A stretch of 64,000 nt of DNA from Saccharothrix carnea (lineage in GTDB: Bacteria > Actinomycetota > Actinomycetes > Mycobacteriales > Pseudonocardiaceae). Shown one piece after another: positions 29,580 to 39,216 of the stretch. The DNA is taken from contig NZ_PYAX01000027.1 of assembly GCF_003014735.1 (NCBI RefSeq), forward strand, positions 1 to 64,000. Reading direction: 5' to 3'. Numbering within the stretch: the first letter of the stretch is position 1; each line of letters starts with the position of its first letter. The notes under the pieces are model-generated. The model did not search any database and was not told the origin of the DNA. It worked only from the letters and a program-made list of their open reading frames with translations. The position numbers and the translations under genes were made by a program.

Positions 29580-30176
29580 TTAGGGGCGGACGCCGTTGGC
29601 GCGGAGGCGGCGGGCGGCCAGGGCCTGGATCACCTCGGGGTCCTGCCGCCGCCAGCCCTCGACCGGGTCGCCGGGGAACGCCGCCAGGTCGCGCAGCGAC
29701 AGGGTGTTCAACGCGTGCAGCGCGAGCAGGTCGAGGCGGCCCTGGTCGCGCAGCCGCCGTGCCACCGCGGCCCGCCGGGCGAACCTCAGCCGCAGCGGCA
29801 GCCACGTGATCAGCACGAACGCCAGCGGGATGGCGATCAGGGCGATGGTGAGCCACAGCGCGGTGGACTCCACCGCCTGCACCTGCGCCTGGCCCGCGTC
29901 CGACAGGGTGCCGCCCGCGGACCGGCCGCGTTCCAGCGCCTCGGCCAGCCTGTCGCCGACCAGCGGCACGTCGCGGGCCTTGTCGGCGGCGTCGCCGAAC
30001 GTGTCGGTCAGGCTCTGCCCGGCGTCGGACAGGCCGTCGCCGGGTGCGCGCAGGGCGCGGACCGAGTCGCCCACCGCCGTGGCGACCTTCACCCAGAACC
30101 ACGTCCAGGCGACGGCGAGCAGGTCGGCGAGGACTTGCCACAGCAGCCGGGGCGGGCGATCCGCGTACCACTTCAT
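29580..30176 (-). CDS. Hypothetical membrane protein
   Basis: A 198-residue protein with a hydrophobic N-terminal helix (about 10-35, LLWQVLADLLAVAWTWFWVKV). A Ser/Asp/Gly-rich coiled region (about 45-100) follows, then a strong membrane helix (about 105-130, ALWLTIALIAIPLAFVLITWL) and a basic cytosolic tail (RLRFARRAAVARRLRDQGRLDLLALHAL region). The tail resembles proteins annotated only as membrane proteins in actinomycetes; no function is assignable. ATG chosen; an upstream GTG would add six residues. Confidence 0.75.
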   Translation of the reverse strand: MKWYADRPPRLLWQVLADLLAVAWTWFWVKVATAVGDSVRALRAPGDGLSDAGQSLTDTFGDAADKARDVPLVGDRLAEALERGRSAGGTLSDAGQAQVQAVESTALWLTIALIAIPLAFVLITWLPLRLRFARRAAVARRLRDQGRLDLLALHALNTLSLRDLAAFPGDPVEGWRRQDPEVIQALAARRLRANGVRP

Positions 30177-30273
30177 GAGGTGTGGTCTTACCACCCCGGC
30201 GTTACCGGAAACCCGAGTGATGGTCGTCGCGGGCCGTCCTCGGGGTCGGTGGCACTACTGTCGAAGTGTGGGG

Positions 30274-32565
30274 ATGACGTTCGGTGAGCTGCTCCGCGCG
30301 CACCGGTTGCGGGTCCGGTTGACGCAGGAGGAGCTGGCGGAGGGTTCCGGGGTCAGCGTGCGGGCGATCAGCGACATGGAGCGCGGTCGGGCGAAGGGGC
30401 CTCAGCGGCGCACGGTGGAGGCGCTGGCGGGTGTGCTGTCGTTGGCGGAGCAGGAGATCGGTGAGTTGCTGGACGCGGCCAAGCAGGGCCGGGCGCGTCG
30501 TGCGGTGTCGCCTGCGACGCCGTCCGCGTTACCCCCGGACGTGGCCGACCTGACCGGTCGCGAGGGTGAGCTGGCCGAGTTGGCGGCGGTGGCGGAGGGT
30601 ACGCGGACGACGTCGGTGGTCGTGGTGCACGGTCCGCCGGGTGCGGGGAAGACGGCGTTGGCGGTGCGGGCCGCGTATCGATTGGCGTCTCGTTTCGCGG
30701 ACGGGTGCTTCTTCTTCAACCTGCGCGGGATGGACGTGCGGCCGGTGCACCCGTCCGAGGTGGTGCACCGGATGTTGTCGGCGTTGGGTGTGCCGGAGAA
30801 GGAGATCCCGGCGGGTGAGGCGGAGCGCTCGGACCTGTACCGGGCGCGGTTGCGGGAGCGGTCGACGTTGCTGGTGCTGGACAACGCGTCGGACGAGGCG
30901 CAGGTGCGGCCGTTGCTGGCGACGGGGTCGGGTTCGCTGGTGGTGGTGACGTCGAGGTTGGTGCTGGGCGGGTTGGAGGCGAGCCGGCGGTTGGGGCTGG
31001 ACGTGCTGGACCCGGGTGAGTCGTTCGACCTGTTGGGCGCGATCGCGGGGCGGGCGCGGGTGGGTGCGGAGCCGGTGGCGGCGGCGCGGGTGGCGAAGTT
31101 GTGCGGTCACCTGCCGCTGGCGCTGCGGATCGCGGGCAACCGGCTGGCGAGTCGTCCGAAGTGGACGATCGGGCACCTGGCCGGGCAACTGGTGGATGAA
31201 CGGCGGCGGTTGTCCGCGTTGACGGCGGGTGACCTGCGGGTGCGGACGGCGTTCGAGATGTCGTACCGGCAGCTCGGGGCGAAGGCGGCGGTGTTGTTCC
31301 GGCGGTTGTCGTTGGTGCCGGGTGCGGATTTCGGGCCGGACGTGGCGGCGGCGCTGGCCGATGTGGACCGGTTCGCGGCGGAGGACACGTTGGAGGAGTT
31401 GGTGGACATGAGCCTGCTGGACACCGCGGAGGTGCCCGGCCGGTACGTGTTCCACGACCTGATCCGGGTGTTCGCCGGTGAACGGCTGGCGGACGAGGAG
31501 CCGGCGCCGGTGGTGGGGCAGGCGCGGCGGCGGATGGTGGACTGGCTGCTGGGCACGGCGGTGCGGGCGGCCGGGTTCTTCGGGCCGGACGCGCGGACGA
31601 CGCCGTCTGGGTTGTTGGGCAGCCAGGAGGACGCGGACGCGTGGTTGACCGCGGAGGCGGGCAACTGGTTGGGCGCGATGCGGTGGGCGGGTGCGAACGG
31701 GCTGCACGCGGAGGTGTTGCGGCTGGCCACGGCGATGCACTGGTACTCGGATCAGCGTGGGCGGGCCGAGACGTGGGTGGAGGTGTTCACCGCGGGGGTG
31801 GCGGCGGCGCGGGCGTTGGGCAGCGTGCGGGACGAGGCCGTGCAGCTGAACTTCCTGACGTGGACGTTGTCGGTGCTGATGCGCCGGTTCCCGGAGGCGT
31901 TGGCGTTGCACGAACAGGCGTGGCGCGCGTCGGTGGCCGCGGGTGACGTGGTGGAGCAGGGTTGGGCGGTGCACTACCGCTCGGTGTCGGAGTTGCGGAC
32001 CGGGCGGTTGGAGGAGGCGCAGGTCAGCGCGCGGCGGGCGCAGGAGCTGTTCCGGCGGGCGGAGTTCGGGCTGGGTGAGCAGATCTCGTTGTCGTGCCTG
32101 GCGTTGGTGCTCGACGGGTTGGCGCGGCACGAGGAGGCGGTGCGGGTGCACCGGGAGCTGCTGGCGAACGTGCGGTCGGGGAGGTTGGAGCTGGCGCCGG
32201 TGATGGCGACCGAGATGTCGGCGACGCTGCTGGTGCGCACGGCGCAGAGCCTGGTCCGGTTGGCGCGGTGGCCGGAGGTGTTGGCGGCGGCCGACGAGGC
32301 GTTGGAGCTGCTGCGTGCGGCGCCCGCGCCGTCGAGCTTGTGCGATGCCCGCTACCTGCGGGGGTTGGCGCTGCACCGGCTCGGTGATGCGGAGGCGGCG
32401 CGGGCGGAGCTGGTGCTGGCGGCGGCGTTGGCCGACGAGCACCGGCACCACCGGCTGGCGGTGGTGCTCGGCGCGTTGGCGGACGTCCAGGACGACTTGG
32501 GCGACCCGGTCGAGGCTGGGGTGTCCCGCGACCGGGCCGCCGCCGCGGAGTCAGCCGATCGGTGA
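30274..32565 (+). CDS. HTH-STAND-TPR regulator (XRE plus NB-ARC)
   Basis: A 763-residue signal-transduction NTPase with numerous domains. Residues 1-70 form an XRE-type helix-turn-helix (LTQEELAEGSGVSVRAISDMERG). The NB-ARC module has Walker A GPPGAGKT (120-127), Walker B LLVLDNASD, a sensor VVVTSRL and CGHLPLALRIAGNRLA (GLPLA-type). Residues ~430 onward are TPR-like repeats that probably sense a ligand or partner. Such proteins regulate secondary metabolism or stress genes. Neighbours give no target. GTG two codons upstream, 6 bp after TACTGT (-10-like), could be a leaderless start. Confidence 0.9.
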   Translation: MTFGELLRAHRLRVRLTQEELAEGSGVSVRAISDMERGRAKGPQRRTVEALAGVLSLAEQEIGELLDAAKQGRARRAVSPATPSALPPDVADLTGREGELAELAAVAEGTRTTSVVVVHGPPGAGKTALAVRAAYRLASRFADGCFFFNLRGMDVRPVHPSEVVHRMLSALGVPEKEIPAGEAERSDLYRARLRERSTLLVLDNASDEAQVRPLLATGSGSLVVVTSRLVLGGLEASRRLGLDVLDPGESFDLLGAIAGRARVGAEPVAAARVAKLCGHLPLALRIAGNRLASRPKWTIGHLAGQLVDERRRLSALTAGDLRVRTAFEMSYRQLGAKAAVLFRRLSLVPGADFGPDVAAALADVDRFAAEDTLEELVDMSLLDTAEVPGRYVFHDLIRVFAGERLADEEPAPVVGQARRRMVDWLLGTAVRAAGFFGPDARTTPSGLLGSQEDADAWLTAEAGNWLGAMRWAGANGLHAEVLRLATAMHWYSDQRGRAETWVEVFTAGVAAARALGSVRDEAVQLNFLTWTLSVLMRRFPEALALHEQAWRASVAAGDVVEQGWAVHYRSVSELRTGRLEEAQVSARRAQELFRRAEFGLGEQISLSCLALVLDGLARHEEAVRVHRELLANVRSGRLELAPVMATEMSATLLVRTAQSLVRLARWPEVLAAADEALELLRAAPAPSSLCDARYLRGLALHRLGDAEAARAELVLAAALADEHRHHRLAVVLGALADVQDDLGDPVEAGVSRDRAAAAESADR

Positions 32566-32733: not shown

Positions 32734-33117
32734 TCAGTCGAGCACGGCGAGCGCGTCGATCTCGACCAGCAGCCTGTCGGGCAGGCCGACGTAGACGGTG
32801 GTGCGCGCGGGGAACGGTTCCTCGGTGACGAATTCGCCGTAGGCGGCGTTCATCTCGGCGAAGTGGGCGGTGTCGGTGAGGTAGACGCGCAGCATGACCA
32901 CGTCGGCGAGGGACGCGCCGCCCGCCGCCAGCACGGCGGTCACGTTGCGCATGGCCTGCCTGGTCTGTTCGGCCACGGTGTCGCCGACGACGTCGCCGGT
33001 GGCCGGGTCGAACGCGACCTGGCCCGCCACCTGCAGGATGGGCCCCTTGCGGACGCCCTGGGAGAACGCGGCCACGGGGGTGGGCGCGTCGGCGGTCCTG
33101 ATCTCGGTCTTCGCCAT
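32734..33117 (-). CDS. ridA: RidA family enamine/imine deaminase
   Basis: A 127-residue trimeric YjgF/YER057c/UK114 protein that hydrolyses reactive 2-aminoacrylate-type enamines and imines to keto acids. RTTVYVGLPD contains the key Arg, with VEIDALA and the central VLAAGGASLADVVMLRVYL typical. It is the last gene of the minus-strand arm of the catabolic locus. The PLP deaminase encoded on the other arm would generate such an enamine, which explains its presence. Confidence 0.92.
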   Translation of the reverse strand: MAKTEIRTADAPTPVAAFSQGVRKGPILQVAGQVAFDPATGDVVGDTVAEQTRQAMRNVTAVLAAGGASLADVVMLRVYLTDTAHFAEMNAAYGEFVTEEPFPARTTVYVGLPDRLLVEIDALAVLD

Positions 33118-33148
33118 GGGTTGTGCGTTTCCTCTCTGGGTCGAACGG

Positions 33149-33898
33149 TCAGTCGCGCGGCGTCCAGCCGCACTCGACGGAGGCCGCTCGCGCGGTGGCG
33201 AGCAGGTCGGGCAGGTGGCCGAGGAGGCCGTCGAAGTCGAGCAGCACCTTGGGCACGGACATCGAGACGGCGGCGACGACCTCGCCGCGGGCGCCGCGGA
33301 TGGGTGCGGCGACGCAGTGGATGAAGTCCTCGTGCTCGGCGTTGTCGACCGCGTAGCCGGCGGAGCGGACGCGGTCCAGCTCGGCCAGGTAGGCGTCGGG
33401 GGTGGTGATGGTGTTCGCGGTCAGCGGCACGTAGTCGATGGACCGGGCGATCTCGCGGCGGCGGGGTTCGGGCAGGTCCGACAGCAGCACCTTGGCGACG
33501 GCGGTGCAGTGCAGCGGCGCCCGTCTGCCGATGCGCGAGTACATCCGCATGGGGTGGGTGCTGTCGTACTTGTCGATGTAGATGACCTCACCGTCCTCGT
33601 AGGAGGCGAGGTGGACGGTGTAGCCGGTGCGGGCGTTGAGGTCGCGCAGGGCGTTCTCGGCGCTGCGCCGCACGTCGCGTTCCTCCAGCGCCCGGTTGGC
33701 GAGGTCGAACAGGGCGGTGCCGAGCCGGTAGTGGTGCACGCCTTCGCGTTGCACGAACCGGTGCGACTCCAGGGTGCGCAGCAGCCGCATGGTGGTGGAC
33801 TTGTGCACGTCGATGACGCCGGACAGCTCTTCCAGCGTCTTCGGCCCGGTGGCCAGTTCACCCACCAGGGTCAGCGCCCGGTCCAGGCTTTGGCTCAT
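33149..33898 (-). CDS. IclR family transcriptional regulator
   Basis: A 249-residue regulator. The N-terminal winged helix (about 1-65) contains TLEELSGVIDVHKSTTMRLL. The C-terminal effector domain has TGYTVHLASYEDGEVIYIDK, the APLHCTAVAKVLL segment and AAPIRGARGEVVAAVSMSVP. The start overlaps the kinase stop (ATGA). It most likely controls the divergent promoter region 34864-34971; KdgR and related IclR members respond to KDG-type sugar acids. Confidence 0.92.
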   Translation of the reverse strand: MSQSLDRALTLVGELATGPKTLEELSGVIDVHKSTTMRLLRTLESHRFVQREGVHHYRLGTALFDLANRALEERDVRRSAENALRDLNARTGYTVHLASYEDGEVIYIDKYDSTHPMRMYSRIGRRAPLHCTAVAKVLLSDLPEPRRREIARSIDYVPLTANTITTPDAYLAELDRVRSAGYAVDNAEHEDFIHCVAAPIRGARGEVVAAVSMSVPKVLLDFDGLLGHLPDLLATARAASVECGWTPRD

Positions 33899-34863
33899 CG
33901 ACGTCTCCTCAGGTGTGCGGCGGCCCACGTGCGGGAGTCGGCGTCCAGCAGTGGCACGGTCACCGCGGGCGGCAGCGACTCGCCGACATCTTCCCTGGTG
34001 AGCAGTGCGGAGGCGGCTTGGAGGTGCCCGGCGCGCAGCCGGCGTGCCGGTGGTTCGCCGGCGAGGTGCGCGGCGAGGTAGCCGGCGGCGAAGGCGTCGC
34101 CCGCGCCGACGGGCTCCACCACCTCGACCCGGAGGCCGGGTTGGAACGTCGTCTCACCGCGTTCGTGGACGGTCGCGCCGCGTGCGCCGTGCTTGACCAC
34201 GAGCGTCGTCGGGCCGGGCAGCAGCGCGCGCAGCTCGGCCGGGTCGCCCGTCCCCCACACGGCCTGCGCCTCGTCGGAACCGGCGAGCACGATGTCCGCC
34301 GCGTCGGCGAGGTCGCGCAGCACGGACGGGTCGCGGTCGTGCCACAGCGCGGGGCGCCAGTTGAGGTCGAACGACACCGGCACGGCCCGCGGTCGGCGCA
34401 GGACGGCGCGCAGCAGCTGCAGGCAGCTGTCCGACAGGGCGGCCGTGATGCCGCTGACGTGCACGAGCGCCACGTCGTCGAGGCGCAGCCGGTCGAGCGT
34501 GTCGGGGCCCATCGCGGAGGCCGCCGAGCCGCGCCGGTAGTACCGCACGGGGCTGCCCGCGGCGTCGGCTTCCTTGACGTAGAGGCCGGTCGGCCGGTCG
34601 GGGTCGACGCGCACGTCGGTGACGTCCACGCCCGCGCCGCCCACCGCGTCGAGGACGGCGCCGCCGAACGCGTCGTCGCCCACGGCGCTCACCCAGCGGC
34701 TGCGCACGCCCAGTCGGGCCAGGTGGACGGCGACGTTGGACTCGGCGCCGCCGATCGCCCGGTTCCACGTGCGCACGGCGCGCACCGGGCCGGGTTCGGC
34801 GGGCACCAGGACCGCCATGGTCTCGCCGAGGCACACCACGCCGCCCGGCAGGTCGAACCGCAT
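33895..34863 (-). CDS. PfkB-family sugar-acid kinase, probable 2-keto-3-deoxygluconate kinase
   Basis: A 322-residue ribokinase-fold enzyme. It has an N-terminal CLGETMAVLVP, WNRAIGGAESNVAVHLARLG (substrate glycines) and the catalytic signature VEPVGAGDAFAAGYLA, with Asp as base. FDLNWRPALW and the YYRRGSAAS segment are typical of KdgK rather than fructokinase or ribokinase. Predicted reaction: KDG plus ATP to KDPG. Neighbours support sugar-acid catabolism. Confidence 0.85.
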   Translation of the reverse strand: MRFDLPGGVVCLGETMAVLVPAEPGPVRAVRTWNRAIGGAESNVAVHLARLGVRSRWVSAVGDDAFGGAVLDAVGGAGVDVTDVRVDPDRPTGLYVKEADAAGSPVRYYRRGSAASAMGPDTLDRLRLDDVALVHVSGITAALSDSCLQLLRAVLRRPRAVPVSFDLNWRPALWHDRDPSVLRDLADAADIVLAGSDEAQAVWGTGDPAELRALLPGPTTLVVKHGARGATVHERGETTFQPGLRVEVVEPVGAGDAFAAGYLAAHLAGEPPARRLRAGHLQAASALLTREDVGESLPPAVTVPLLDADSRTWAAAHLRRRR

Positions 34864-34883
34864 CCGTGCTCCTCGCTCGACGA

Positions 34884-34956
34884 TTGACGGCCAGGCGACT
34901 GAATGTTACACACTCCAGCATCACATTGCGCAATAGCCGTTGCGTCACATGCAACG
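34884..34956 (+). promoter_or_regulatory. Promoter and operator-like palindromes of the deaminase operon
   Basis: TTGACG (34884-34889) and TACACA (34907-34912) with a 17-bp spacer form a good plus-strand promoter. Downstream lie a perfect palindrome ATTGCGCAAT (34925-34934) and an inverted repeat CGTTGC-N7-GCAACG (34938-34956). Both are candidate IclR sites within the 5' leader. On the minus strand TTGCGC and TGTAAC (17-bp spacer) could drive the kinase gene from the same interval, so one regulator could control both arms. Confidence 0.55.
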
Positions 34957-34971
34957 TGAGGAGCGACAGAC

Positions 34972-36225
34972 GTGGACCTCGACGCTGTGGCCGCCATCCG
35001 CGACGAGCGGGTCGACTGGCGGTTCAAGGGCCTGCCCGCCGACGTGTTCGGCGCGACGGTCGGTGACGTGGCCGGACGCCGGCTCGACCTGTTCGCCGAC
35101 GGTTTCGTCGGGCCCCTGGTCGTGCTGGACGCCGCCGCGCTGGAGCACAACCTCGCCACCATGGCCCGCTGGTGCGAAGACCACGGCGTGCTGCTCGCGC
35201 CGCACGGCAAGACGACCATGGCCCCGCAGCTGTTCGCCCGCCAGTTGGCGCACGGCGCGTGGGGCATCACCGCGGCCAACACCAGCCAGCTGCGGGTCTA
35301 CCGGGCGTTCGGGGTGCGGCGGGTGCTGCTGGCCAACCAGCTCGTCGACCCGGCCGGGCTGCGGTGGCTGGCCGCCGAACTGGCTGCCGATGACACGTTC
35401 GAGTTCACCTGTTGGGTGGATTCCGTCGCGGGCGTGGCGCGGATGACCGAGGCGTTGGGCAGGGTCGACCGCCCGGTGGACGTGCTGGTCGAGCTCGGGG
35501 CGCGCGGCGGGCGGACCGGTGCGCGCGACCAGGCCACGGCGGTGGAGGTGGCCCGGGCCGCCGCCGCGAGCCCGGCGCTGCGGCTGGTCGGCGTCGGCGG
35601 CTACGAGGGGGCGCTGGCGCACGACGCGTCACCCGCGGCCCAGTCCGTCATGGACGGTTACCTGACGTCGTTGCGGGACTTGGCGATCGCGCTGCGGGAC
35701 CGGTTCGAGGTGGCCGACCCGATCGTCACCGCGGGTGGCAGCGCGTACTTCGACCAGGTGGCGGCGAAGCTCACCGAGCCGTGGCCGTTCCCGGTGCGGC
35801 CGGTGCTGCGCAGCGGCGCGTACATCACCCACGACGACGGCTTCTACCGCGGGATCTCGCCGCTGGGCCGCACGCCCGGCGCGCAACCGTTCCGCAGCGC
35901 GCTGCGGGCGTGGGCGCAGGTCACCTCACGTCCCCAGCCCGACCTGGCGCTGCTCACGCTCGGCAAGCGTGACGCGTCGTTCGACGAAGGCCTGCCCGAG
36001 CCGCAGGTCGTGCGCGGGCGGGACGGCGGGACGCGACCGCTGGCGGCCGAGGTCACCGCGCTCAACGACCAGCACGCGTTCGTGCGGCTGACCGGTGACG
36101 ACGTGGAAGTCGGCGACTGGGTCGGCCTCGGCCTGTCCCACCCCTGCACGGTGTTCGACAAGTGGCAGCTGATCCCGGTGGTCGAGGGCACCACCGTGGT
36201 CGACCTGGTCCGCACCTACTTCTAG
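34972..36225 (+). CDS. Fold-type III PLP amino acid deaminase (D-serine/D-glucosaminate dehydratase-like)
   Basis: A 417-residue enzyme with an alanine-racemase-type barrel. Lys80 in LLAPHGKTTMAP is the Schiff-base lysine, and the C-terminal segment SHPCTVFDKW near residue 390 supplies the His-x-Cys metal-site signature of D-serine dehydratase/D-threonine aldolase relatives. VLVELGARGGRTGARD binds PLP phosphate. It eliminates water and then ammonia from a D-2-amino-3-hydroxy acid through an enamine. D-serine, D-threonine or D-glucosaminate are candidate substrates. The GTG start follows GAGGAG by 8 nt. Confidence 0.85.
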   Translation: MDLDAVAAIRDERVDWRFKGLPADVFGATVGDVAGRRLDLFADGFVGPLVVLDAAALEHNLATMARWCEDHGVLLAPHGKTTMAPQLFARQLAHGAWGITAANTSQLRVYRAFGVRRVLLANQLVDPAGLRWLAAELAADDTFEFTCWVDSVAGVARMTEALGRVDRPVDVLVELGARGGRTGARDQATAVEVARAAAASPALRLVGVGGYEGALAHDASPAAQSVMDGYLTSLRDLAIALRDRFEVADPIVTAGGSAYFDQVAAKLTEPWPFPVRPVLRSGAYITHDDGFYRGISPLGRTPGAQPFRSALRAWAQVTSRPQPDLALLTLGKRDASFDEGLPEPQVVRGRDGGTRPLAAEVTALNDQHAFVRLTGDDVEVGDWVGLGLSHPCTVFDKWQLIPVVEGTTVVDLVRTYF

Positions 36226-36235
36226 GAGGCACACC

Positions 36236-37825
36236 GTGGACATCGTCTTCCGAGGCGCACGGGTCGTGGACGGCACCGGCGCGCCCGCCTACCGCGCGGA
36301 CGTGGGCGTGCGCGACGGGCGGATCGCCGAGATAGGTGACCGGGTCGACGGCGGGCGGGTGGTCGACGCAGACGGCCGGGTCCTCGCGCCCGGCTTCATC
36401 GACATGCACTCCCACTCCGACCTCCAGGTGCTGGCCAACCCCGACCACCTGGCCAAGGTCTCCCAGGGCGTGACCACCGAGGTGCTGGGCCAGGACGGGC
36501 TGTCCTACGCGCCCGCCGACGACGAGGTGCTCGCCGTGCTGCGGGCCCAGCTCGCCGGCTGGAACGACGACCCGCCCGGCTTCGACTGGGACTGGCGCTC
36601 GGTCGGCGAGTACCTGGACCGCCTCGACCGGGGCATCGCGGTCAACGCCGCGTACCTCGTGCCGCAGGGCACGCTGCGGATGCTGTGCGTCGGCTACGAC
36701 GACCGGCCCGCCACCGACGCCGAGCTGGACCGGATGCGGGACGTGCTGGCGCGGTCGTTGCGGGAGGGCGCGGTCGGCATGTCGTCCGGCCTGACCTACA
36801 CCCCCGGCATGTACGCCGACACCGCCGAGCTGACCGAGCTGTGCCGGGTCGTCGGCGAGCTGGGCGGGTTCTACAGCCCGCACCACCGCAGCTACGGCGC
36901 GGGCGCGCTGGACGCGTACGCGGAGATGGTGCGCGTGTCGCGTGACTCGGGCTGCCCGCTGCACCTCGCGCACGCCACGATGAACTTCGAGGTCAACCGC
37001 GGTCGGGCGGGCGAACTGCTGGACCTGCTCGACCGGGCCATCGCGGACGGCGCCGACATCACCCTCGACACCTACCCGTACCTGCCGGGCGCGACGTACC
37101 TGTCGGCGTTGTTGCCGAGCTGGGCGGGCGAAGGCGGACCCGAGGCGACGCTGGCCCGCCTGACCGACGCGGGCACGCGGGAGCGCATCCGGGTCGAGCT
37201 GGAGGAAACCGGCTCGGACGGCTGCCACGGCGTGCCGGTCGACTGGGAGGCCATCGAGGTCAACGGCGTGCGCAGGACCGAGAACGCGCACCTGGTCGGC
37301 TCCTCGATCGCCGAGTCCGCGCGGCGGGCCGGGCGACCGCCCGCCGAGCTGTACTTCGACGTGCTGGTCTCCGAACGGCTGGGCACCTCGTGCCTGATGC
37401 ACGTCGGCCACGAGGACAACGTCCGGGCGATCATGCGGCACCCGGTGCACACCGGCGGCAGCGACGGCCTGCTGGTCGGCGACCGGCCGCACCCGCGCGC
37501 GTGGGGCACCTTCCCCCGCTACCTCGCCCGGTACGTGCGCGAACTCGGCGTGCTGGGGCTGGAGGAGTGCGTGGCCCACCTGACCGGGCGTGCCGCGCAA
37601 CGGCTGCGGCTGGCCGACCGCGGGCTCGTGCGCGAGGGCTACGCCGCCGACCTCGTGCTGTTCGACCCCGACGCGGTCGCCGACACCGCGACGTTCGAGC
37701 AGCCCCGGCAGGCCGCCGAGGGCATCACCCACGTCGTCGTCAACGGCGTCACCGTGCTCGACGACGGCCGGCGCACCGACGCCCTGCCCGGCCGTTCCCT
37801 GCGCAACCCCGGGAGCCGCGTGTGA
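36236..37825 (+). CDS. N-acyl-D-amino-acid deacylase
   Basis: A 529-residue amidohydrolase-superfamily enzyme that hydrolyses N-acyl-D-amino acids to D-amino acid and carboxylate. The metal-binding GFIDMHSHSDLQ (His58, His60) is conserved, followed by VSQGVTTEVLGQDGLS (family position of the bridging residue) and HLAHATMNFE. The final RLRLADRGLVREGYAADLVLFD is the typical composite-domain return. GGAGG lies about 6 nt before the GTG. The 4-nt overlap with the permease and 10-nt gap after the deaminase indicate one operon. N-acetyl-D-glucosaminate is a possible substrate. Confidence 0.9.
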   Translation: MDIVFRGARVVDGTGAPAYRADVGVRDGRIAEIGDRVDGGRVVDADGRVLAPGFIDMHSHSDLQVLANPDHLAKVSQGVTTEVLGQDGLSYAPADDEVLAVLRAQLAGWNDDPPGFDWDWRSVGEYLDRLDRGIAVNAAYLVPQGTLRMLCVGYDDRPATDAELDRMRDVLARSLREGAVGMSSGLTYTPGMYADTAELTELCRVVGELGGFYSPHHRSYGAGALDAYAEMVRVSRDSGCPLHLAHATMNFEVNRGRAGELLDLLDRAIADGADITLDTYPYLPGATYLSALLPSWAGEGGPEATLARLTDAGTRERIRVELEETGSDGCHGVPVDWEAIEVNGVRRTENAHLVGSSIAESARRAGRPPAELYFDVLVSERLGTSCLMHVGHEDNVRAIMRHPVHTGGSDGLLVGDRPHPRAWGTFPRYLARYVRELGVLGLEECVAHLTGRAAQRLRLADRGLVREGYAADLVLFDPDAVADTATFEQPRQAAEGITHVVVNGVTVLDDGRRTDALPGRSLRNPGSRV

Positions 37826-39216
37826 TCGACTGGTTGCAGCACACCACCGGAGGCCTGCTGACGCTGTCCGCGCTCAGCATCGCCCTGCTCCTGGCGATGA
37901 TCATCAGGTGGAAGGTCGAGCCGTTCATCGCGCTGCTCGTCGTCGGCCTGCTGGTGGCGCTGGCCGCGGGCCTGCCGGTGGAGACCCTGGTCGGCTCGGC
38001 GCAGAAGGCGTCGGAATCCCTGGTGGAGAAGGGGTTCGGCGGCATCCTCGGCCACGTCGCCGCGATCATCGGCCTGGGCACGCTGCTCGGCTCGATCCTG
38101 GAGGCCTCCGGTGGCGCCGAGGTGCTGACCCGGTCACTCCTGCGGGCGTTCGGCGAGAACCGCGCGCCGCTGGCCATGGGGCTGGCCGGGCTGATCTTCG
38201 GCGTGCCGGTGTTCTTCGACATCGGCATCTTCGTGCTCGCGCCCCTGGTGTACGTGGCCGCGAAGCGCAGCGGCCGGTCGATCGTGCTGTACGCGATGCC
38301 GTTGCTGGCGGGTTTGTCGGTGATGCACGCGTTCATGCCGCCGCACCCCGGACCGGTCGCGGCGGCCGGGATGCTCGGCGTGGAGCTCGGCTGGATCATC
38401 ATCATGGCGCTGGCCGTGGCGCTTCCCGCGTGGTTCATCGGCGGTGTGCTGTTCTCCGCGTGGATCGGCAAGCGGCTGCACGTGCCCGTGCCGGAGGAGA
38501 TGCTGGCCGCGGCGGAGAAGATGCGCGGCTCGCAGACCAAGGGCGAGCCGCCGCTGTCGCTGGTGCTGGGGATCATCGCGGTGCCGTTGGTGCTGATCCT
38601 GGCGGGCACGTTCGGCAGCATCCTGTTGGCCAAGGGCTCCACCCTGCTGGGCGTGTTCACGTTCTTCGGCACGCCCGCGGTGGCGTTGACGATCGCCGTG
38701 CTGCTGGCGTTCTGGCTGCTGGGGTTCCGGCGGGGCATGACGCGCGAGCAGGTGACCGAGCTGTCCGCCGCGTCGCTGCGGCCGGTGGCGATGATCCTGC
38801 TGGTGGTCGGCGCGGGCGGGTTCTTCGGCGCGGTGCTGTCCGCGACCGGTGTGGGCAAGGTGCTCGCCACGTCGCTGGCCGACGTCGGGTTGCCGGTGAT
38901 CGCACTGTCGTACGTGATCAGCTGCGGGATGCGCATCGCGCAGGGCTCGGCCACCGTGGCGATCGTGACCACGACCGGCATCGTCCAGCCCGTCGTCGCC
39001 GACCTGGACTACTCGCAGCCGCAGCTCGCGCTGCTCGTCATGTCGATCGCGGCGGGCTCGATCATCGCCTCGCACGTCAACGACGGCGGGTTCTGGATCG
39101 TGTCGCGCTACTTCGGCCTGTCGGTCAAGGAAACCCTCCAGACGTGGACCGTGCTGGAGACCATCCTGTCCGTGGTCGGCTTCGCAGTCGCCGCCCTGCT
39201 CAGCCTGGTCGTGTAA
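37822..39216 (+). CDS. GntP-family permease
   Basis: A 464-residue inner-membrane transporter with about 12 hydrophobic segments. GntP signatures include FGVPVFFDIGIFVLAPLVY, HAFMPPHPGPVAAA and ASHVNDGGFWIV. Family members take up gluconate and other sugar acids by proton symport. GTG overlaps the deacylase stop (GTGA). Its linkage to the deacylase and deaminase suggests import of an N-acylated or free amino sugar acid. Confidence 0.93.
   Translation: MIDWLQHTTGGLLTLSALSIALLLAMIIRWKVEPFIALLVVGLLVALAAGLPVETLVGSAQKASESLVEKGFGGILGHVAAIIGLGTLLGSILEASGGAEVLTRSLLRAFGENRAPLAMGLAGLIFGVPVFFDIGIFVLAPLVYVAAKRSGRSIVLYAMPLLAGLSVMHAFMPPHPGPVAAAGMLGVELGWIIIMALAVALPAWFIGGVLFSAWIGKRLHVPVPEEMLAAAEKMRGSQTKGEPPLSLVLGIIAVPLVLILAGTFGSILLAKGSTLLGVFTFFGTPAVALTIAVLLAFWLLGFRRGMTREQVTELSAASLRPVAMILLVVGAGGFFGAVLSATGVGKVLATSLADVGLPVIALSYVISCGMRIAQGSATVAIVTTTGIVQPVVADLDYSQPQLALLVMSIAAGSIIASHVNDGGFWIVSRYFGLSVKETLQTWTVLETILSVVGFAVAALLSLVV

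Follow-up and report, generated by a model that had tools for sequence, protein, structure and literature searches.

The closest described system to the locus considered here is the ong cluster of the marine bacterium Pseudoalteromonas prydzensis. According to Jiang et al. 2022 (PMC9537276), OngB deacetylates N-acetyl-D-glucosaminate (GlcNAc1A), OngC deaminates the product to 2-keto-3-deoxygluconate (KDG), KdgK makes 2-keto-3-deoxy-6-phosphogluconate (KDPG), and the RidA protein OngD is required for growth on GlcNAc1A. The same paper has these four enzyme families, with glycoside hydrolase family 20 (GH20), shown to act in this way by genetics and enzyme assays, and it reports complete pathways from Gammaproteobacteria and one Betaproteobacterium, in a survey that counted clusters only if they had at least 4 co-occurring homologues over 30% identity. 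Our subject is a six-gene locus at positions 32734 to 39216 of a 64,000-nucleotide stretch of contig NZ_PYAX01000027.1 (assembly GCF_003014735.1) from Saccharothrix carnea; the whole stretch is called the window. This locus is probably the catabolic core of an actinobacterial oxidised-chitin regulon, in which GlcNAc1A would be taken up and broken down under IclR control. The route from GlcNAc1A through D-glucosaminate and KDG to KDPG, which the first-pass annotation had deduced from the genes, is correct as chemistry but already known, from marine Gammaproteobacteria. For this lineage it is supported by that precedent, by neighbouring genes in relatives for an aldolase, a lactonase, an ATP-binding cassette (ABC) importer, GH20 and GH18, and by a common operator. 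No description of GlcNAc1A or glucosaminate catabolism in Actinobacteria was found among the matches listed from the PMC open-access literature, as judged by titles and the starts of abstracts, a scope outside which subscription papers and preprints fall.

The six genes form two divergent arms: the minus strand carries RidA, IclR and a PfkB kinase, and the plus strand a pyridoxal phosphate (PLP) enzyme, an Amidohydro_3 protein and a GntP protein. Open reading frames (ORFs) and Pfam/NCBIfam matches bear out all six families where the first-pass annotation had put them. The features are as follows.

32734..33117, minus strand: RidA family protein, counterpart of OngD, a probable enamine/imine hydrolase aiding the deaminase (PF01042 at 117.6 bits; TIGR00004 over its cut-off)
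33149..33898, minus strand: IclR-family regulator, the proposed operator binder (Pfam IclR_C and HTH_IclR)
33895..34863, minus strand: PfkB-family candidate KDG kinase (model for kinases of KDG and 2-keto-3-deoxygalactonate, KDGal; best Protein Data Bank (PDB) match 1v19)
34884..34912, plus strand: promoter-like TTGACG-17 nt-TACACA for the plus arm, read in the sequence
34925..34934, no strand: palindrome ATTGCGCAAT, adjoining the operator, read in the sequence
34939..34955, no strand: operator GTTGC-N7-GCAAC between the arms, conserved across comparable intergenic regions
34972..36225, plus strand: PLP deaminase of fold type III, counterpart of OngC, for which we propose D-glucosaminate as substrate (D-ser_dehydrat and Ala_racemase_N)
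36236..37825, plus strand: D-aminoacylase-like amidohydrolase, proposed GlcNAc1A deacetylase (Amidohydro_3)
37822..39216, plus strand: symporter of the GntP family, which we propose imports the free aldonic acid (PF02447 at 431.9 bits; TIGR00791, gluconate:H+ symporter, over its cut-off)

The deacylase has one full copy in the host genome of 8.9 Mb and 40 contigs, and it is encoded together with the PLP deaminase, RidA and the KDG-kinase-like protein, as in an ong-type pathway. The ong cluster of P. prydzensis ACAM 620 likewise holds a deacylase, a fold-type III PLP deaminase, a sugar kinase, RidA, a regulator, a transporter and GH20, with the same proposed chemistry to KDPG. The regulator is an IclR protein here but MurR/RpiR in the ong cluster; uptake is by GntP and ABC types here as against SSS and TonB receptors there; and GH20, unlike that of the ong cluster, is encoded in the host by a separate, unlinked operon, with no signal peptide visible to the eye. 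For the protein comparison we used Pseudoalteromonas sp. CF6-2, which has an annotated cluster composed in the same way; the four protein pairs reach 36, 32, 31 and 28% identity, the deaminase (against OngC) giving the highest of these values and the kinase the lowest. With identities near its 30% limit, the survey mentioned above may not have been able to register this lineage. Judged on its proteins, the locus is not an ong orthologue, and its parts are at best distant relatives of ong proteins.

The neighbourhood comparison that the first-pass annotation had asked for was made on the best 80 of at least 517 confirmed loci, the nearest named relatives among the matches listed being Saccharothrix at 92% identity. 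The same divergent six-gene order recurs in 46 of the 80, far beyond chance, and the separate components are found in still more of them (RidA 72, PLP enzyme 69, IclR 66, kinase 61, GntP 56). A KDPG aldolase gene is included in the cluster in 9/80 loci, and also in two plasmid records, an annotated one from Tsukamurella and one from Arthrobacter. The host itself has one KDPG aldolase gene (PF01081), beside an Edd-like gene. Homologues counted by tblastn on the 80 flanks, with Pfam confirmation on a few of each, add a lactonase in 33, a substrate-binding protein (SBP) in 29 and GH20 in 29, all three standing together downstream in 28. Two loci, both from Streptacidiphilus, have a GH18 gene upstream of the PLP gene. 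The D-aminoacylase loci of haloarchaea, Burkholderia, Pantoea and Cetobacterium were also looked at, and they do not have the cluster in common.

The palindrome that had been noticed between the arms can be examined wherever the kinase and PLP genes are divergent and no more than 700 bp apart, which is the case in 56 of the 80 loci, or 57 regions with the window. GTTGC-N7-GCAAC is present in all 57, exactly in 46 and with one mismatch in 11, as compared with 2.5% of 1120 random pieces of the same length from the same loci, a control that, like the other random-piece controls below, includes the true sites. The site is found in 64/65 loci that have an IclR match over 150 bits and in 2/15 that do not, two of these 15 (L069 and L077) ending at a contig edge upstream, where the absence of IclR is uninformative. 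Of the loci in this table, 56 had served to train the operator matrix; with held-out loci only, the site is present in 8/9 with IclR and 2/15 without (p = 0.0005). Because the operator is conserved and co-occurs with IclR, we propose that IclR controls these units, and the earlier suggestion of IclR control over both arms gains support to that extent. That the IclR protein is what binds the GTTGC-N7-GCAAC sites, and in which direction it would regulate, we infer from sequence. The earlier claim of a promoter between the arms fared less evenly: a looser pattern, TTGAC...TACA[AC], occurs in 53/57 intergenic regions, a count made with no control run, and a strict sigma-70 scan found none. By eye, a CGCAA-type half-site at the position of ATTGCGCAAT recurs in most of the intergenic regions displayed.

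In the host genome the exact operator occurs at 7 places, as against 3 for a reversed-pattern control, and the matrix ranks a site on contig C7 (26.3) above the window site (23.4), followed by C5 (19.7) and C1 (17.8). From the start of the C7 site it is 26 bp to an SBP gene, after which come two permeases and GH20. This operon (C7, 16417-20807; L112:6418-10808) has no ATPase gene among its four genes, and a CutC-family gene (L112:5675-6340) lies near its start in 12/12 genomes of the genus and in 8/13 further loci. The site has both arms exact and a varying centre in the host and in all 11 other genomes of the genus sampled (12/12). Beyond the genus, 18 loci were picked from the 55 whose flanks contain no close SBP, and 17 of their genomes could be searched; an SBP at E 1e-60 or better is present in 13, and in 11 of those the operator stands just before it, 8 times exactly and otherwise with a single mismatch, the rate for random pieces being 5.5%. 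Among SBP matches next to the cluster (29 loci and the host, n = 30) only 6 have a site of their own with at most one mismatch, because there the SBP gene mostly follows the lactonase closely: a separate site occurs in 0/18 cases with the SBP within 60 bp behind the lactonase and in 5/7 with at least 140 bp between them. The two exceptions are from Actinoalloteichus, one (L064) having no IclR in its flank and the other (L069) being contig-cut so that IclR is not judgeable. An exact site also comes directly before GH20 in all four Actinokineospora loci. The operator is common to the catabolic locus and the ABC/GH20 operon and is conserved in the genus, which fits an IclR regulon that would serve oxidised chito-oligosaccharides and in which GH20 and oligosaccharide uptake may be co-regulated with the catabolic genes.

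The five other exact host sites we take as chance, three of them (C1, C5, C13) lying inside ORFs of a simple caller and two (C4, C9) between ORFs with scores of 6.3 and 14.1, under the training range. A relaxed host scan allowing one mismatch gives no excess over control (25 and 19 versus 28 and 23). The host lactonase gene, on contig C13 with its site at L166:1291-1307, has a Tat-like (twin-arginine) start and further TTGC repeats before it. We do not count its operator: 10/12 genus genomes have it with at most one mismatch (random 7.7%), but it overlaps a stop codon in a stretch that hardly varies. On host contig C3 (L113:4858-7331), Edd-like and Eda genes are close together as an Entner-Doudoroff pair, without the operator.

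Co-occurrence was counted over 148 genomes of the class, with a strict deacylase set of 20 of the 28 matched genomes (at least 49% identity; the other 8 are at 40-47%), and the statistics ignore kinship apart from the removal of one family. A KDPG aldolase over the cut-off is found in 19/20 deacylase genomes and 43/128 others, the sole negative deacylase genome being 78% complete. Lytic polysaccharide monooxygenases (LPMOs) of family AA10, carried by 32 of the 148 genomes, are in 15/20 deacylase genomes versus 17/128 others, and the host has 8 such genes (PF03067 over the cut-off). When the ten genomes of one family are taken out, the figures are 9/10 versus 43/128 for the aldolase and 5/10 versus 17/128 for the LPMO. 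We had considered the LPMO association as a strong test and downgraded it to a weak one, since its signal follows that one family.

The deacylase is where the locus departs most clearly from what has been described. Residue roles in PpOngB (PDB 9kb1), including zinc ligand Cys97, Lys254 for the carboxylate, Ser292 for the C3 hydroxyl and Gln298 for the C5 hydroxyl, are those given in PMC12017989. Aligned to PpOngB, the window protein, of the same D-aminoacylase-like family, retains H58, H60, H216, H246, Y188, Y280, D410 and R421, and its clade as a whole (n = 83, with one member gapped at HxH and position 97 and one sequence short) keeps the HxH motif, both zinc histidines, the catalytic Asp368, Tyr194, Tyr285 and Arg379. 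Changed in the window protein are C97 to D87, E226 to Y220, K254 to T248 and S292 to T287. Across the clade, Cys97 is Asp in 82/82 members with a residue there, Asp being found also in 3/10 non-clade sequences, so that the Cys/His/His zinc site of subtype V D-aminoacylases does not occur in the clade. Ser292 is Thr in 83/83, Glu226 is Tyr, and Lys254 is Thr, His, Val or Ser. The column for Gln298 is unreliable through an insertion, AfDam showing R in our alignment and L in PMC12017989. Because Glu226 and Lys254 are replaced in the clade and retained in 9/10 non-clade sequences (the tenth, from Nonomuraea, is sister to the clade with Tyr and a gap), the clade pocket differs from those of OngB and of plain D-aminoacylases alike. 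The best solved relatives by sequence are the Alcaligenes D-aminoacylase AfDam (1m7j/1rjp) and the Bordetella N-acyl-D-glutamate deacylase (3gip). With AfDam the window protein has in common Thr at position 292, and it differs from these two in having GQDG for the GNCG metal motif, a longer insertion region, and T187/N250 for F/M of AfDam. Haloarchaeal and Cetobacterium plasmid D-aminoacylases (L097, L104) have the same Asp motif, GQDG, in unrelated neighbourhoods.

In a tree of 40 of the 93 deacylase sequences, a small sample under midpoint rooting, OngB groups with AfDam-type enzymes at support 100 and the window clade falls on the other side. The OngB residue pattern failed as proof of function, and we keep it as evidence against OngB membership; by residues and tree position, the window deacylase is not an OngB. 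The deaminase tree has OngC with 3gwq (support 87), apart from the window clade, which itself reaches a support of no more than 76. The kinase has as its best solved relative by sequence the Thermus thermophilus KDG kinase 1v19 (168.6 bits); its 179.3 bits against the NCBIfam bifunctional KDG/KDGal model are under the curated cut-off of 400, so that it is placed by the solved relative only. The deacetylase, if its function is right, would have been recruited separately.

In the mechanism that we infer, with substrates and enzyme locations deduced throughout, AA10 LPMOs would oxidise chitin at C1 outside the cell, and a lactonase with a Tat-like signal in relatives and host would open the lactone to give oxidised chito-oligosaccharides and GlcNAc1A. 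By eye, the twin-arginine motif is in the lactonases of 6/10 loci displayed and in that of the host, and is lacking from the four of Actinokineospora. The ABC importer, with a lipobox seen by eye in four SBPs, would take in the disaccharide, and GH20, no signal peptide being visible at the N-terminal starts inspected, would split it inside; GntP would import the free acid. The D-aminoacylase-like enzyme would then release acetate from GlcNAc1A, the PLP enzyme, aided by RidA, would eliminate ammonia to give KDG, and the kinase would convert KDG to KDPG. The last step, to pyruvate and glyceraldehyde-3-phosphate, would fall to the KDPG aldolase, whose gene belongs to the cluster in some genera but is unlinked, beside the Edd-like gene, in the host, and IclR would switch the units through the GTTGC-N7-GCAAC sites.

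A number of observations weigh against this mechanism. The deacylase is without several of the residues with which PpOngB binds GlcNAc1A, including the carboxylate lysine. No kinase was found in 19 of the 80 flanks, two of them ended by a contig edge, and 7/8 Saccharopolyspora loci are among these; deaminase and deacylase are kept with no kinase in the flank in eight loci (seven Saccharopolyspora, one Amycolatopsis). Searched at E 1e-8, the 80 flanks contain no homologue of four host LPMO domains, and we dropped the idea of an adjacent LPMO gene; an AA10 LPMO is absent from 5/20 deacylase genomes, and a single family contributes 10 of the 15 genomes with one. As to the operator, 2/13 further SBP homologues (L164, L165) lack it, the host KDPG aldolase has nothing better than a match with 3 mismatches, the site before the host lactonase carries one mismatch, with its left half running into the end of the preceding gene, and the exact host sites on C5 and C1 score within the lower training range (17.1-34.9) yet are inside ORFs. 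Finally, PMC9537276 has OngC acting on D-serine and D-threonine as well.

A rival reading is a locus for scavenging N-acyl-D-amino acids such as those of D-serine or D-threonine, with deacylase, dehydrative deaminase and RidA at work and the kinase and GntP as bystanders. T287 is of D-aminoacylase type, the nearest solved structure to the deaminase (3gwq, 271.6 bits) is filed as a D-serine deaminase, GntP relatives include DsdX, and the flanks lacking a kinase favour such use. However, the KDPG aldolase, GH20, lactonase, ABC sugar importer and common operator have no role in it, and the pocket departs from ordinary D-aminoacylases too at E226 and K254. We therefore consider D-amino acid scavenging very unlikely and side with the first-pass annotation, which had preferred the sugar-acid route over D-serine-type use. 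Another idea, that an oxidase or dehydrogenase working on free GlcNAc, and not LPMOs, supplies the sugar-acid pathway, and that the ABC/GH20 operon serves ordinary chitobiose, would account for the deacylase genomes without AA10 LPMOs, and an exported lactonase is compatible with any extracellular source of lactone. This scheme requires an oxidase, for which no search was made, and the importer with its seemingly intracellular GH20 matches instead a need to import and split oxidised dimers, which are the stated end product of the chitobiase SmCHB in PMC10067821; we regard it as unlikely. Least probable in our view is a version of this chemistry for a different hexosaminate, such as N-acetyl-D-galactosaminate via KDGal, for which one can point to the best NCBIfam kinase match being the bifunctional model, under its cut-off, and to GH20, a family whose members act on GalNAc too. 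The GH18 genes upstream in the two loci and the AA10 LPMOs of the deacylase genomes point instead to chitin, weakly so in that the LPMO follows families.

Returning to the reading of the locus as the core of an oxidised-chitin regulon, we see about an even chance that Actinobacteria put this pathway together on their own, separately from the marine ong cluster. A second GlcNAc1A deacetylase would then have arisen in a different D-aminoacylase branch, one with Asp as metal ligand and the carboxylate lysine lost, and would have been combined with a deaminase of another branch, a distantly related kinase, uptake by GntP and ABC types, and an IclR protein switching at least 2 unlinked units. A route known in marine bacteria would here run apparently on other enzyme branches and another regulatory switch, and this suggests that D-aminoacylases have given rise to a GlcNAc1A deacetylase on more than one occasion. 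Actinobacteria are major degraders of chitin in soil, and the locus offers a concrete gene set, regulator, operator and importer for the fate that oxidised chitin ends may have inside their cells.

Just before the locus, an ORF at window positions 29596-32565 has matches to a helix-turn-helix domain, an NB-ARC ATPase and tetratricopeptide repeats, and is presumably AfsR/SARP-like.

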